Assembly (NCBI GenBank): GCA_002712645.1
Contig: PAUH01000009.1
Coordinates: forward strand, 115,633-122,127
Direction of reading: 5' to 3'
Source: Methanobacteriota archaeon
Lineage (GTDB): Archaea; Thermoplasmatota; Poseidoniia; Poseidoniales; Thalassarchaeaceae
Length of the DNA: 6,495 bases
The position numbers were made by a program, and so were the translations under genes. Under the pieces are notes generated by a model. It was not told where the DNA came from, searched no databases, and saw nothing but the letters and a program-made list of their open reading frames with translations. This document shows, piece after piece, positions 2,675-6,327 of the stretch (the stretch's first letter is position 1; every line of letters starts with the position of its first letter).

Positions 2675-2681
2675 TCACTCC
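2675..2681 (-). promoter_or_regulatory. Shine-Dalgarno site of the DUF1499 gene, overlapping the grpE stop
   Basis: The minus strand reads GGAGTGA, then AAAT and the ATG at 2670. The GGAG core is 7 nt from the ATG, and the TGA within the site is the grpE stop codon. This decides for the ATG at 2670 over the upstream TTG at 2688 and suggests that translation of the two genes is coupled. Confidence 0.6.
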
Positions 2682-3163
2682 GAGACAACCACCTTGGCTG
2701 GTTTTAGTACACGATCATGAATCATGTACCCTGTCTCGATAACTTGCAATACTCTGCCAGAACCAACATCCTCTGATGCGGGAATCGCTGCAATTGCTTC
2801 CATCCGGCTGGGATCGAATACCTCGCCCTCGACATCAATCTCAACAATCCCCTCCGAAGAGAGGGCCGATCGCATGCTTTCTGCAGTCAGTCTTACACCC
2901 TCCAGAGTTGAATCTATGGAGTCTTTCGATGACTCGATGGCAAGCTCGAGACTCCTCAGGACATCTAGCATCCTCAGTCCAAGTTGACTCGGCGAGTATC
3001 TGATTAGGTCGGCTCTTTCCCTCGAAGCTCTTGAACGTACATTTGCAATCTCCGCACGAGCATACTGGAGATCACGTTCTAAAGATTCGATACTTACTTC
3101 CACAGCGCCCTCGTCCTCGGGAACATCCTCCTCATGATTTGCAATCTCATCTTCACCAGTCAT
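2675..3163 (-). CDS. grpE: GrpE, nucleotide exchange factor of the DnaK (Hsp70) chaperone
   Basis: Cytoplasmic cochaperone that releases ADP from DnaK; 162 aa, at the short end for the family. The layout is canonical. An acidic low-complexity N-terminus is followed by a charged helical or coiled-coil segment (about 22-60) for dimerisation, a helical part with LRMLDVLRSLELAI, and a C-terminal beta domain from about residue 105. That domain carries FDPSRMEAI, VLQVIETGYMIHDRVLKPAKV and a final VSE. The usual His of the FDPxxHEA motif is Met here. Archaeal GrpE is regarded as acquired from bacteria together with DnaK/DnaJ; neither partner gene is in this window. The open frame extends to an ATG at 3208, overlapping the Rli1 gene by 11 nt. 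The ATG at 3163 is preferred because a strong AGGAGG lies 9 nt upstream and because the extra 15 residues are not typical of the family. Confidence 0.9.
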   Translation of the reverse strand: MTGEDEIANHEEDVPEDEGAVEVSIESLERDLQYARAEIANVRSRASRERADLIRYSPSQLGLRMLDVLRSLELAIESSKDSIDSTLEGVRLTAESMRSALSSEGIVEIDVEGEVFDPSRMEAIAAIPASEDVGSGRVLQVIETGYMIHDRVLKPAKVVVSE

Positions 3164-3171
3164 ATCCAATG

Positions 3172-3177
3172 CCTCCT
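3172..3177 (-). promoter_or_regulatory. Strong Shine-Dalgarno site of grpE
   Basis: The minus strand reads AGGAGG, 8-9 nt from the ATG at 3163, within a purine-rich run just after the Rli1 stop. It fixes the grpE start at 3163, leaving a 34-nt gap, and implies a message with a 5' leader, which fits read-through transcription from the Rli1 gene. Confidence 0.65.
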
Positions 3178-3197
3178 CTCTCTCTAAAAGACTGTAA

Positions 3198-4967
3198 TTA
3201 ATCAACATAGAAATATTCGCCGTCGATTTTCTGCTCCCTATCTTTCCTACTCCCTGGTTTGTTTATTCTCGGCCTGTGTGATTCATGATCCCTTCGAAAC
3301 GTCACATCAACTTGTTCCAGGAATCGATTCATGCCTTGTCTTAGCGCCATCGGCCCATGGGCGTGCCCTTGAGCCCCTCCCTTCCCCTCGAAGACAAGTA
3401 GCGAATCACTCACAATATCGATGAAATAGATATCGTGATCGATGACCATGGCAGCCTTCTCTTTGGAAAGCATTGTCCTCCGAATTGCCTTGGCGGCTTC
3501 CATTCTAGCATTCACGTCTAGATGCGCACTTGGTTCATCGAGGAGATATAGATCAGCTTCTCTGCCGAGACATATGGCTATACTCACCGCTTGTAACTCT
3601 CCTCCGGATAGACGCCGAGCATTTAATTCGACCATCTGATCAATTTGAAGGGGCCGAATGACCTGCGTATTGAACTCCCCGCTCCTCCATGTGAGTCCTA
3701 TCTCAGAATCCAACCATTGAGCCACACTTCCTTCAAAATCTGTATTGACGTGCTGCGGTTTGTACGATACTGTCGCATCCATTGTGCACCATCCTTGATC
3801 AGGCTCAATTTCCCCTGCAATCATTCTGACCATCGTCGTCTTACCGGTTGCATTTGGCCCCACCACGCCTACCACTTCGGCACTTCTGACGCCACCTTCT
3901 CCTGTTTTCAAGGAGAAATCCCCCATTTTCTTCTCCATGTCTCCCCATTCTAGGATGATGTCTCCAACCTCTTCACCACGCACCCTTCCTCTTAGGAATG
4001 AAATAGGCTTGTCCCTGATTCTGACATTTTCTTCCGTTAGGAAACCGTCGAGATAGGCATTTATTGCAGTCCTAGTGGTTCTCGGCGGAGTGAATATCCC
4101 GTATGCGGCACGCCCCCCATACACGACATGAACAAGATCGCATAGAACATCGAGAATCGCCAGATCATGCTCTATTACGATAATTCTCTTGCCTCTTTCC
4201 ACAAGATCTTGAATGATTCTGACAACCCTCATGCGTTCATGGATATCGAGATAGGACGATGGCTCATCGAAGAAGTAGACATCGGCTTCTTTCAGTATGG
4301 TTGCACATATCGCGACACGTTGTAACTCGCCACCAGATAGTCCCGAGAGCCGCCTATCTAGTATGTGACTTATGGCGGTTTTTTCAGCATATGCCTCAAG
4401 CTCACCACGATCATCGACTCTCGAAAGAAGGCCCCGCACCTCCCCGTCCCAAAGTTTTGGAAGCTTGTCGACGTACTGTGGTTTGACGGCTATGGCAACT
4501 CCCGATTCTGAGAGCAGATCAAGATAATCTCTCAATTCTCCACGAGGGAATGAGTTGAGAATCTCATCCCAATCCCTGTCGGCAATGGTCCAATCTCCAA
4601 GATTAGGCCTTAGAGCCCCAGATAACAGATTTATCGCAGTTGATTTTCCCATCCCGTTCGGTCCAAGAATCCCGACAACTTGTCGTTCACGCGGAGCAGG
4701 TAAACGAAAAAGTCTGAATGAGTTCTCCCCATAACTGTGCGTCATATCATGGTCGAGCTCTTCTGGAAGATTGATGATCTTGACTGCATTCCCCGGACAA
4801 CGTTTCGCCCTATTCAAGCACACCGGACAGGCAGTTTCTAGAATTCTGCATTTGTTACCTTCGAATTGAATACACTCCCTTCCGCAACTACCTGCGTATT
4901 TTTGCAGATAATCGAATGCAGGGGTATTGGGCTTGCATCGTTCCTCAAGCAATACCGCGACTCGCAT
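3198..4967 (-). CDS. rli1: ABCE1/Rli1, ribosome-recycling ATPase with atypical Fe-S domain
   Basis: Soluble twin-ABC ATPase that splits ribosomes after termination; 589 aa, the usual length. The order is an N-terminal Cys-rich Fe-S domain (1-68), NBD1, hinge, NBD2. NBD1 has Walker A GPNGMGKST (102-110), a helix-loop-helix insertion ending in KPQYVDKLP (162-170), signature LSGGE (210-214), Walker B YFFDEPSSYLD (231-241) and switch His267. Hinge: AINAYLDGFLTEENVRIRD (301-319). NBD2 has GPNATGKTT (370-378), YKPQ, LSGGE (453-457), LLDEPSAHLD (475-484) and His511. The tail has MNRFL, VTFRRD, PRINK and KDREQK followed by a YF motif, as in other Rli1 proteins. The Fe-S domain has seven cysteines (11, 28, 32, 40, 47, 50, 57) in a non-canonical arrangement, described under findings. 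The frame stays open to a GTG at 5126, but those extra 53 residues overlap the upstream gene and lack family similarity. MRVAVLLEERCKP aligns with the normal Rli1 start. Confidence 0.95.
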   Translation of the reverse strand: MRVAVLLEERCKPNTPAFDYLQKYAGSCGRECIQFEGNKCRILETACPVCLNRAKRCPGNAVKIINLPEELDHDMTHSYGENSFRLFRLPAPRERQVVGILGPNGMGKSTAINLLSGALRPNLGDWTIADRDWDEILNSFPRGELRDYLDLLSESGVAIAVKPQYVDKLPKLWDGEVRGLLSRVDDRGELEAYAEKTAISHILDRRLSGLSGGELQRVAICATILKEADVYFFDEPSSYLDIHERMRVVRIIQDLVERGKRIIVIEHDLAILDVLCDLVHVVYGGRAAYGIFTPPRTTRTAINAYLDGFLTEENVRIRDKPISFLRGRVRGEEVGDIILEWGDMEKKMGDFSLKTGEGGVRSAEVVGVVGPNATGKTTMVRMIAGEIEPDQGWCTMDATVSYKPQHVNTDFEGSVAQWLDSEIGLTWRSGEFNTQVIRPLQIDQMVELNARRLSGGELQAVSIAICLGREADLYLLDEPSAHLDVNARMEAAKAIRRTMLSKEKAAMVIDHDIYFIDIVSDSLLVFEGKGGAQGHAHGPMALRQGMNRFLEQVDVTFRRDHESHRPRINKPGSRKDREQKIDGEYFYVD

Positions 4968-5025: not shown

Positions 5026-6273
5026 TCAGATAGGGAGGAATCGATAACGGAAGTACACCCATGCAGCGAGACCAATCTTCTCCGGTTTCGATAGCTGCAC
5101 TCTCTCGGAGAATACATCTCCGTCACTCTTGGCTATCTTCTTCAATATCGAGTCATAGAAAGCCATCATCGCTGCTGGGGAGTATCTTGATTGCCTGTCC
5201 AAGTGTCCAAGGAGGCTCCTAGCAGTACGCCCATATGATTTTGCACGTTTGATGTAATTCCGGCAGAAACCCTCCCAACCTGGGTGGCGCAAAAGGCTCG
5301 CACCGTCCAGAACATCTTGTTCGGATATGCCGTACCTGCGCAACTCGTCTAGAGGCAGGTATATCCTTCCTCTAGCCGAGTCCTCTAGGACATCTCTCAA
5401 GATATTGGTCAGCTGCATGTATATGCCCCATGCTTCAGCCTCATCCTTGGCCTCGGGAGCGTTGTAGCCATAGATTTCTATGCACACGAGACCAACAGTA
5501 GAGGCAACTTTGTAGCAATACTCATAGAGATCTTCGAAAGTCTCGAATCGATCTCTGTGAAGATCATCCTCCATCCCGCTGATCATGTCGTCTAATAGGG
5601 ATCTTGGGATTCTGAACTTTTCAACAGTGTCCTTCAGTGCAATGAATATCGGATCCGTGGAAGTCACGGTTGTATAAGCTGTCGAGAGCTTCTTTCGATA
5701 GTAAAAAAGCTGAGACATTTTATCGTCATACGCCTCCCTCTCGAGAACAGGCTCACCCATTATTCGCTCTATCTCCGTCCTGTAGCCCCTTGACTCGCTA
5801 CTGTTCTCAGAACCTCCGGGGAATAGATCAGTGTAGTCGCCATCAGCGATATCGTCCGCCCTTCTGCAGAAGGCGTAGTATGCGCATATCGATTGCCTAA
5901 CCTCTTGAGGAAGATACTTGAACGAATGATAGAAGTTTGCAGCTTCCATCCTGGTCAACTCTTCACAGTACTCGTATGAAGCAGCAATCATTCTTGCAGG
6001 CAGCTCACCCTCTTTCCAAATCGAAGCATCAATGTGTCCAAATGGGTTCCTGAGACCCCCTCTTAAGGTGGCGACGCCCATGAATTTGGCCCCCTCTCTG
6101 AGCGTTTCTAGGGCTGTTATGGAGATTGCACGCGTAGCATCCCTGGTGAGTGAGACCCTCGATCTAATTGCATCAATAGGTTCACTCGAATCCTTCTCAA
6201 AACCAAGGGAGATGTCCTCGATATCCAAGCCATCAATATCGATGGACTCAGCCTTTTCATTCAGTGACATCAT
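5026..6273 (-). CDS. crtB: Phytoene/squalene synthase family protein (probable phytoene synthase)
   Basis: Head-to-head prenyl synthase; in this family two geranylgeranyl diphosphates give phytoene, or two farnesyl diphosphates give squalene. The protein has 415 aa. Family motifs are clear: EAANFYHSFKYLP (about 110-122), YYAFCRRADDIAD with the first Asp-rich motif D140-x3-D144, YEYCYKVASTVG (about 250-261), and QLTNILRDVLEDSARGRIYLP with the second Asp-rich motif D294-x3-D298. The C-terminal VQLSKPEKIGLA is also typical. Oddities are an N-terminal extension of about 95 acidic, mostly helical-looking residues and a longer linker after the first Asp motif; relatives are usually near 300 aa. No desaturase or cyclase gene is in the window, so the product cannot be fixed from sequence alone. 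Start choice: the longest frame begins at TTG (6285); tandem ATGs at 6273 and 6270 are more likely. An ATG at 6081 preceded by a G-rich run is a weaker alternative. Confidence 0.85.
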   Translation of the reverse strand: MMSLNEKAESIDIDGLDIEDISLGFEKDSSEPIDAIRSRVSLTRDATRAISITALETLREGAKFMGVATLRGGLRNPFGHIDASIWKEGELPARMIAASYEYCEELTRMEAANFYHSFKYLPQEVRQSICAYYAFCRRADDIADGDYTDLFPGGSENSSESRGYRTEIERIMGEPVLEREAYDDKMSQLFYYRKKLSTAYTTVTSTDPIFIALKDTVEKFRIPRSLLDDMISGMEDDLHRDRFETFEDLYEYCYKVASTVGLVCIEIYGYNAPEAKDEAEAWGIYMQLTNILRDVLEDSARGRIYLPLDELRRYGISEQDVLDGASLLRHPGWEGFCRNYIKRAKSYGRTARSLLGHLDRQSRYSPAAMMAFYDSILKKIAKSDGDVFSERVQLSKPEKIGLAAWVYFRYRFLPI

Positions 6274-6327
6274 GTTTCGGAACAAAGTTAGACGTTTGAA
6301 GGTCTGTGTCTTTAGTGCGCTCCCGCT
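6274..6327 (-). other. Short gap upstream of the crtB-like gene
   Basis: These 54 nt lie between the stop of the possible upstream partial gene and the ATG at 6273. No convincing Shine-Dalgarno sequence precedes the ATG and no strong TATA element is seen at the spacing expected for a leaderless start. An AT-rich AATATTTT on the minus strand near 6341-6348 is a possible weak TATA element with a 46-nt leader, but it would lie inside the upstream frame. Confidence 0.25.

Follow-up and report, generated by a model that had tools for sequence, protein, structure and literature searches.

A six-cysteine form of the Rli1/ABCE1 N-terminal domain that interchanges with the canonical iron-sulfur form among marine Poseidoniales

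The mitochondrial Fe-S assembly system had no known essential target before Rli1 (ABCE1) was identified as one. The clusters of Rli1 are regarded as essential, and a redox role for them is not supported, according to the sections of a review drawn on here (PMC8153317). The canonical N-terminal domain contacts rRNA and uS12 via residues including R2, K15, N17, E19, P25 and R28 (PMC7196836, in the part cited). Replacement of Cys25 or Cys61 in yeast Rli1 by Ser was described as allowing anaerobic and not aerobic growth, and the double mutant did not grow (excerpt of PMC4523923). The ferredoxin-like domain of archaeal Rpo3 falls into six classes by Cys pattern, its cluster motifs varying between archaea, and in Methanosarcina acetivorans the domain and its clusters are both dispensable (PMC5300874, passages used here). 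Marine group II archaea carry either NiSOD or Fe/MnSOD, the Ni and Fe/Mn types being the only ones reported in the cited portion of PMC10783094; the SOD type mostly tracks clades, and Fe/MnSOD is described there as vertically inherited. Among the PMC full-text matches listed, no title or abstract start described these archaea as having an altered Fe-S domain in Rli1/ABCE1 (subscription papers and preprints lie outside that set). Among those matches, the six-cysteine Rli1 form presented here appears to be a previously undescribed variant of a known protein.

The window analysed (the whole stretch of DNA, 6,495 nucleotides) comes from a marine Poseidoniales genome of 1.55 Mb in 46 contigs (G000, 87% complete), in which one full-length Rli1 copy was found. 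The Rli1 protein scored 749 bits against NCBIfam NF009945 over residues 1-588 (cut-off 469), contained two PF00005 stretches corresponding to two ABC ATPase domains, and was co-linear with P. abyssi ABCE1 across residues 1-587 when aligned to solved ABCE1 chains. Its assignment as an ABCE1/Rli1 orthologue is well supported; it is not a canonical two-cluster ABCE1. Feature positions are listed in Table 1. Other ORFs on the same strand, named here by the look of their sequences, include a GrpE-like ORF (2675-3208) that overlaps the rli1 3' end by ∼10 bases, a phytoene/squalene-synthase-like ORF (5026-6285) that ends ∼60 bases upstream of rli1, and a lipoprotein- or hydrolase-like ORF of 718 residues (15-2171) whose hydrophobic start is followed by a Cys (AGC).

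Table 1. Positions of rli1, its domains and the N-terminal cysteine codons in the window
Feature	Position	Strand	Remarks
rli1/abce1	3198..4967	minus	589 aa plus stop; one full-length copy in genome
Twin ATPase domains and hinges, residues 75-589	3201..4745	minus	Common to both forms; ATPase tree separates the two families
Six-cysteine ("D") N-terminal domain, residues 1-66	4770..4967	minus	From sequence, conservation and predicted structure
Cys11 codon	4935..4937	minus	Invariant; equals canonical Cys 1 (site I)
Cys28 codon	4884..4886	minus	Invariant; new Cys ahead of strand 2; predicted at site II
Cys32 codon	4872..4874	minus	Invariant; equals canonical ninth, non-ligand Cys; predicted new site II ligand
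Cys40 codon	4848..4850	minus	Cys in 64/97, not conserved; ligand role unlikely
Cys47 codon	4827..4829	minus	Invariant; equals canonical Cys 5 (site II)
Cys50 codon	4818..4820	minus	Invariant; equals canonical Cys 6 (site II)
Arg53 codon	4809..4811	minus	Invariant in six-cysteine form; sits at canonical Cys 7 (yeast Cys61)
Cys57 codon	4797..4799	minus	Invariant; equals canonical Cys 8 (site I)

When translated, the minus strand gave the Rli1 N-terminus MRVAVLLEERCKPNTPAFDYLQKYAGSCGRECIQFEGNKCRILETACPVCLNRAKRCP..., with Cys at residues 11, 28, 32, 40, 47, 50 and 57 and Arg at 53, the same seven cysteines and arginine as given in a preliminary description of this DNA. The lack of the canonical eight cluster cysteines, also claimed there, was confirmed by the translation and by Pfam: the N-domain scored 12.1 bits on Fer4_RLI (PF04068), under the cut-off of 23. 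Apart from this sub-threshold match, neither Fer4 (PF00037) nor any other Fer4 family was detected at E up to 10, and no zinc family model matched. For two canonical Poseidoniales domains run for comparison, the Fer4_RLI scores were 45 and 40 bits and the Fer4 scores 31 and 35 bits. The two-cluster motif, C-x2-3-C-x2-3-C...CP occurring twice, is absent from the window N-domain.

To survey the order, each of the two forms was run as a query against 318 Poseidoniales genomes, and the form was assigned from the two scores. The window's form as query matched in 290 genomes (28 of the 318 gave no match), and these 290 scorable genomes comprised 143 six-cysteine genomes, one of which (G185) was counted from a 44-residue piece only, and 147 canonical ones. 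Reading of the relatives revealed two discrete N-domain forms. The six-cysteine form follows the pattern C-x-P-x14-C-x3-C-x14-C-x2-C-x6-CP; in the canonical form, which varies slightly, the sequence is CQPKKCNxECxxFCPPVRNGxECI...CIGCGICxxxCP. Both occur in both Poseidoniales families and in 11 of 22 genera (g4, g5, g8, g10, g11, g12, g13, g15, g16, g17, and g20). In another family of the same class (f3), 18 of 21 genomes matched, seven with the six-cysteine and 11 with the canonical form. The six-cysteine Rli1 proteins of f3 (L309-L315) are 60-61% identical to that of the Poseidoniales genome G135 over the whole protein, and the canonical f3 proteins 43-48%. A wider sample of 389 Thermoplasmatota genomes yielded matches in 357. 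Outside the class, no match scored better than E 1.1e-12, against 1.1e-19 or better for the six-cysteine form; none of the sampled Thermoplasmatota outside the class scored like that form, and the domains read there, mostly best-scoring ones, were canonical in 20 of 20.

A single genome, G296, had both forms, on contigs C45 and C47 (L235, L183). This is probably mis-binning (a mixed bin), because the canonical copy is on a separate contig and its ATPase part groups with f2 genus g15. Two paralogues with differential loss were not favoured as an explanation, since each genome shows one form by score, with G296 as the sole exception. Chance, a sequence error or a MAG artefact was ruled out by the presence of the form in 143 of 290 genomes and by the same six cysteines in all 97 domains read; several six-cysteine records (L053, L056, L057, L060, and L067) bear AG-... 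or AH-... names, which suggest single-cell genomes and count against a MAG artefact. The preliminary description would have taken close relatives with eight cysteines as a sign of local sequence error or divergence. Such relatives do exist (the canonical 147 of 290), and they reflect exchange of two domain forms, not error. One record titled Gemmatimonadetes bacterium (L093, PBPC01000088.1) encodes a Poseidoniales canonical Rli1 and is probably mislabelled or from a mixed bin.

Conservation was assessed on the 97 of the 143 six-cysteine genomes in which the N-domain was read. Residues 11, 28, 32, 47, 50, and 57 were Cys in 97/97 domains. Residue 53 was Arg in 97/97, in line with the earlier statement that Arg53 replaces the third motif-II Cys. 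Position 40 was Cys in 64, Phe in 16, Trp in 7, Val in 5 and Ile in 5. The suggestion that Cys40 might serve as a cluster ligand was dropped, 33 of the 97 domains having Phe, Trp, Val or Ile there; Cys in only 64 ruled it out as a site II ligand. Of the seven-cysteine pattern, six cysteines were conserved and Cys40 was not. The C28-x3-C32 and C47-P-x-C50 pairs were invariant, with one extra residue between C28 and C32 in two f3 sequences (G586, G588). Among the database matches listed, 235 of 240 proteins kept the six-cysteine pattern; in four of the five exceptions the domain's N-terminal end was missing wholly or partly, and the fifth was without C47. The dN/dS values of the domain and the adjacent ATPase segment were 0.036 and 0.022 in the six-cysteine form (15 close pairs), and 0.016 for both in the canonical form (13 pairs). 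The six-cysteine domain, with its dN/dS of 0.036, is therefore maintained: it is under strong purifying selection and changes somewhat faster than the canonical domain.

The history of the domain differs from that of the rest of the protein. By parsimony on quick, unrooted trees, which include some weak branches and do not resolve the direction of gain or reversion, one change separated the two forms on the N-domain tree (179 rows) vs. 15 on the ATPase-part tree (177 rows), where the family labels needed 2. Removal of the odd G296 copy left 15 form changes on the ATPase tree, and 12 independent pairs were on well-supported branches. A single six-cysteine clade on a 38-row ATPase tree was rejected (p-AU 2.9e-67). 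The closest mixed-form pair, G135 (six-cysteine) and G133 (canonical) of genus g17, had ATPase parts 94.0% identical. Their DNA identity, taken in 60-base bins, was 85-100% ahead of the start codon; within the gene it fell to 48-53% for bases 0-180, stood at 65-73% from base 180 to base 360 and was mostly 71-93% after that, with a single low bin of 56% at base 540. Five other mixed-form pairs gave 33-51% identity over bases 60-180 (two of them had about equally low bins in the flanks too), vs. 68-95% in six same-form control pairs. Because the form changes once on the domain tree and ∼15 times on the ATPase tree, and because identity collapses over the domain in a pair with 94% identical ATPase parts, the simplest reading is repeated domain replacement through homologous recombination. 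Within genera, two ATPase residues are associated with form. Residue 243 is His in 66/79 canonical vs. 32/94 six-cysteine proteins and Tyr in 55/94 six-cysteine proteins; residue 106 is Met in 79/79 canonical proteins and Ile in 34/94 six-cysteine ones. Co-adaptation or linkage is possible for both.

The two forms were aligned profile to profile (97 six-cysteine vs. 82 canonical sequences). C47, C50, and C57 fell on canonical Cys 5, 6, and 8, R53 on Cys 7, and C32 on the ninth Cys of the canonical domain. No Cys counterpart of canonical Cys 2, 3, and 4 was seen in this alignment or in alignments to solved chains, and the yeast Rli1 and P. abyssi chain alignments gave the same frame. The ECIQ...KCRILE stretch aligned to canonical strands 2-3 (ECIV...KPLVSE), and therefore C32 falls on the ninth Cys. 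That residue is Ala in P. abyssi ABCE1 and Val in 11 canonical f3 proteins, so it is a non-ligand position. As had been proposed, two complete [4Fe-4S] sites cannot be built from the canonical ligands; Cys 2, 3, 4, and 7 have no Cys counterpart. The 12-residue insertion described in motif I was not recovered here: the profile and solved-chain alignments lay this stretch over canonical motif I and open gaps only one to four residues long. The S. solfataricus alignment, with a register off by three residues around C32, showed no ∼12-residue insertion either.

Secondary structure prediction placed strands at residues 2-6, 33-36, 39-42, and 62-66 and helices at 16-24 and 48-55, a beta-alpha-beta-beta-alpha-beta order that corresponds to a predicted ferredoxin-like fold. 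Fold prediction of the window protein from a 41-sequence alignment gave a mean pLDDT of 80.2 (68, 87, 85, 81, 78, and 82 for successive 10-residue blocks of residues 1-60), and the best PDB match of the predicted fold was P. abyssi ABCE1. An AlphaFold canonical control domain had a mean pLDDT of 41.6 and was left out of the comparison. In the ferredoxin-like fold, strand 1 and helix 2 both terminate at one end of the domain; helix 1 terminates, and strand 2 and helix 2 begin, at the opposite end. The canonical ligand sets are Cys 1, 2, 3, 8 and Cys 4, 5, 6, 7, and the fold-end rule drawn from this topology reproduces them. Applied to the window protein, it would assign C11 and C57 to site I, with C28, C32, C47, and C50 grouped at site II, a prediction based on the alignment, the predicted strand and helix order and general ferredoxin topology. 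This model suggests that site I keeps two cysteines and that site II likely regains four, to give one centre, either zinc or one cluster. The preliminary description had cluster I intact and cluster II broken; the alignment and predicted fold would reverse that assignment.

An alternative alignment that keeps the local C-x-x-E-C would leave C11, C28, C32, and C57 as cluster I. On that alternative, cluster I stayed intact after an insertion and the second site degenerated, leaving one [4Fe-4S] at site I. C28-x-x-E-C32 does resemble the canonical C-x-x-E-C, with residue 31 Glu or Asp in 97/97 domains, and both C11 and C57 are invariant. We nevertheless consider it unlikely. It requires a 12-residue insertion and a deletion of ∼15, chosen by neither the profile nor the solved-chain alignments, it leaves the invariant C47 and C50 partnerless, and the predicted hairpin at 33-42 right after C32 fits canonical strands 2-3, not the loop past canonical Cys 3.

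We favour, with moderate confidence, a rebuilt six-cysteine N-domain that interchanges with the canonical one among relatives, likely holds one metal centre and probably still serves as the ribosome-splitting lever. The rebuilt domain would keep the ferredoxin-like strand and helix order. Site I would be gutted, with C11 and C57 remaining, perhaps paired as thiols or as a disulfide, and site II would be rebuilt as C-x3-C / C-P-x-C (C28, C32, C47, and C50) to bind one structural ion, most likely zinc, or else a single cluster. Since CIGCGIC became CPxCxxR and the C-x3-C / C-P-x-C quartet appeared, there is a slight preference for the one centre being possibly zinc rather than a single cluster. 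The gain could be a splitting factor with a reduced iron requirement, or none, and a lower sensitivity to oxygen in surface seawater; where that benefit is missing, lineages might return to the two-cluster form. We put forward more tentatively, as plausible rather than probable, that ABCE1, among the most highly conserved Fe-S proteins of archaea and eukaryotes, has in the six-cysteine form a natural iron-free (zinc) version, so that the clusters are dispensable for splitting, and that the two forms are adaptive trans-species domain alleles which abundant ocean archaea exchange by recombination.

We examined the residues that contact the ribosome. R2, K15, N17, E19, P25, and R28 were invariant in 16 aligned canonical f1 sequences (some f2 canonical proteins have Met at 17). 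Of these residues, the profile alignment matches R2 alone to one in the six-cysteine form; docking must differ, because K15, N17, E19, P25, and R28 have none. The uS12 proteins were sought in 30 genomes, i.e., 15 sister pairs, of which 28 genomes matched and 12 pairs were usable (uS12 was incomplete in G135, G139, and G048, and the G048 reading was unalignable). In these 12 pairs, the uS12 proteins of mixed-form sisters were identical or a few residues apart, and co-switching of uS12 with form was not seen, no column splitting the forms at p < 0.05. Given near-identical uS12 between sisters and the lost contact residues, the rebuilt domain likely acts on the same ribosome through a different docking surface. 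Judged from orthology and selection only, the six-cysteine Rli1 probably still splits ribosomes. The earlier point that loss of the canonical ligand set would bear on ribosome splitting is supported. Yeast Cys25 and Cys61 are canonical Cys 3 and 7 (chain numbering), and the alignment leaves the six-cysteine form without equivalents of both. Because the yeast Cys25 and Cys61 mutants fail aerobically, a damaged two-cluster domain in an aerobic plankton cell is, by analogy, unlikely, and a new single centre would explain the six-cysteine form better.

Rhodopsin genes are a mark of sunlit water. They were present in 94 of the 143 six-cysteine genomes and in 77 of the 147 canonical ones (uncorrected Fisher p 0.024; odds ratio within genera 2.0). 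On 12 phylogenetically independent pairs, the difference was not significant (∼4.5 pairs the same way and 1.2 the other way; median p 0.375). The G000 genome itself has two rhodopsin-family matches. An iron or oxygen advantage of the six-cysteine form is weakly supported. The balance between the forms might instead be kept by an antagonist (a toxin, an inhibitor or a virus factor) that hits one form, with no role for iron or oxygen. Forms switch within genera without a clear ecological correlate in the one trait tested (rhodopsin), and target-resistance alleles show this pattern of a domain form handed from species to species; both count in favour of an antagonist. Against it, ABCE1 has no antagonist of this kind known to us, and viral contigs yielded no close relative of the window protein in one scan. 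We regard an antagonist as improbable, if not negligibly so.

Six, not four, cysteines are invariant and none is obviously spare, so that all six could sit in an unusual centre, e.g., a binuclear zinc cluster or a lower-nuclearity Fe-S centre with shared ligands. The predicted strand and helix order and ferredoxin topology would place the two groups at opposite ends of the domain, too distant from each other, which makes such a centre distinctly unlikely. A degenerating, metal-free remnant heading for loss would account for the missing canonical ligand set, Fer4 signature and most ribosome-contact residues, and is very improbable in view of the low dN/dS (0.036), the same six cysteines in 97/97 domains and the repeated exchange by recombination.

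The rebuilt six-cysteine domain would matter in three ways. A natural form without the canonical ligand set, together with near-identical uS12 and ATPase parts up to 94% identical, provides matched pairs for testing the role of the clusters. The form may be an adaptation, iron- or oxygen-saving, of an abundant group of planktonic archaea. If the zinc version is true, the two Fe-S clusters of ABCE1 would not be required for ribosome splitting.

Compared with known systems, the window protein shares its whole-protein architecture and twin ATPase domains with canonical ABCE1/Rli1 (NF009945, PF04068 plus PF00037). It differs in its six newly arranged cysteines, in being without Cys 2, 3, 4, and 7, in failing PF04068 and in the loss of most rRNA and uS12 contacts. 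Like the yeast Cys25 and Cys61 mutants in the sections of that study cited above, the six-cysteine form is without the equivalents of ligands lost there; unlike them, it is natural, lacks both at once, carries additional cysteines and has been kept in marine plankton. The SOD types, as portrayed in the portion of that work used here, are likewise metal-cofactor alternatives inside the same archaea, but SOD type goes mostly by clade, whereas the Rli1 form switches within genera. The closest precedent found is Rpo3, going by the passages cited: it too is an information-processing protein with a ferredoxin-like domain whose cluster motifs vary. In contrast to Rpo3, Rli1 is a protein whose clusters are regarded as essential, and it switches form repeatedly among sister species by domain-sized recombination.
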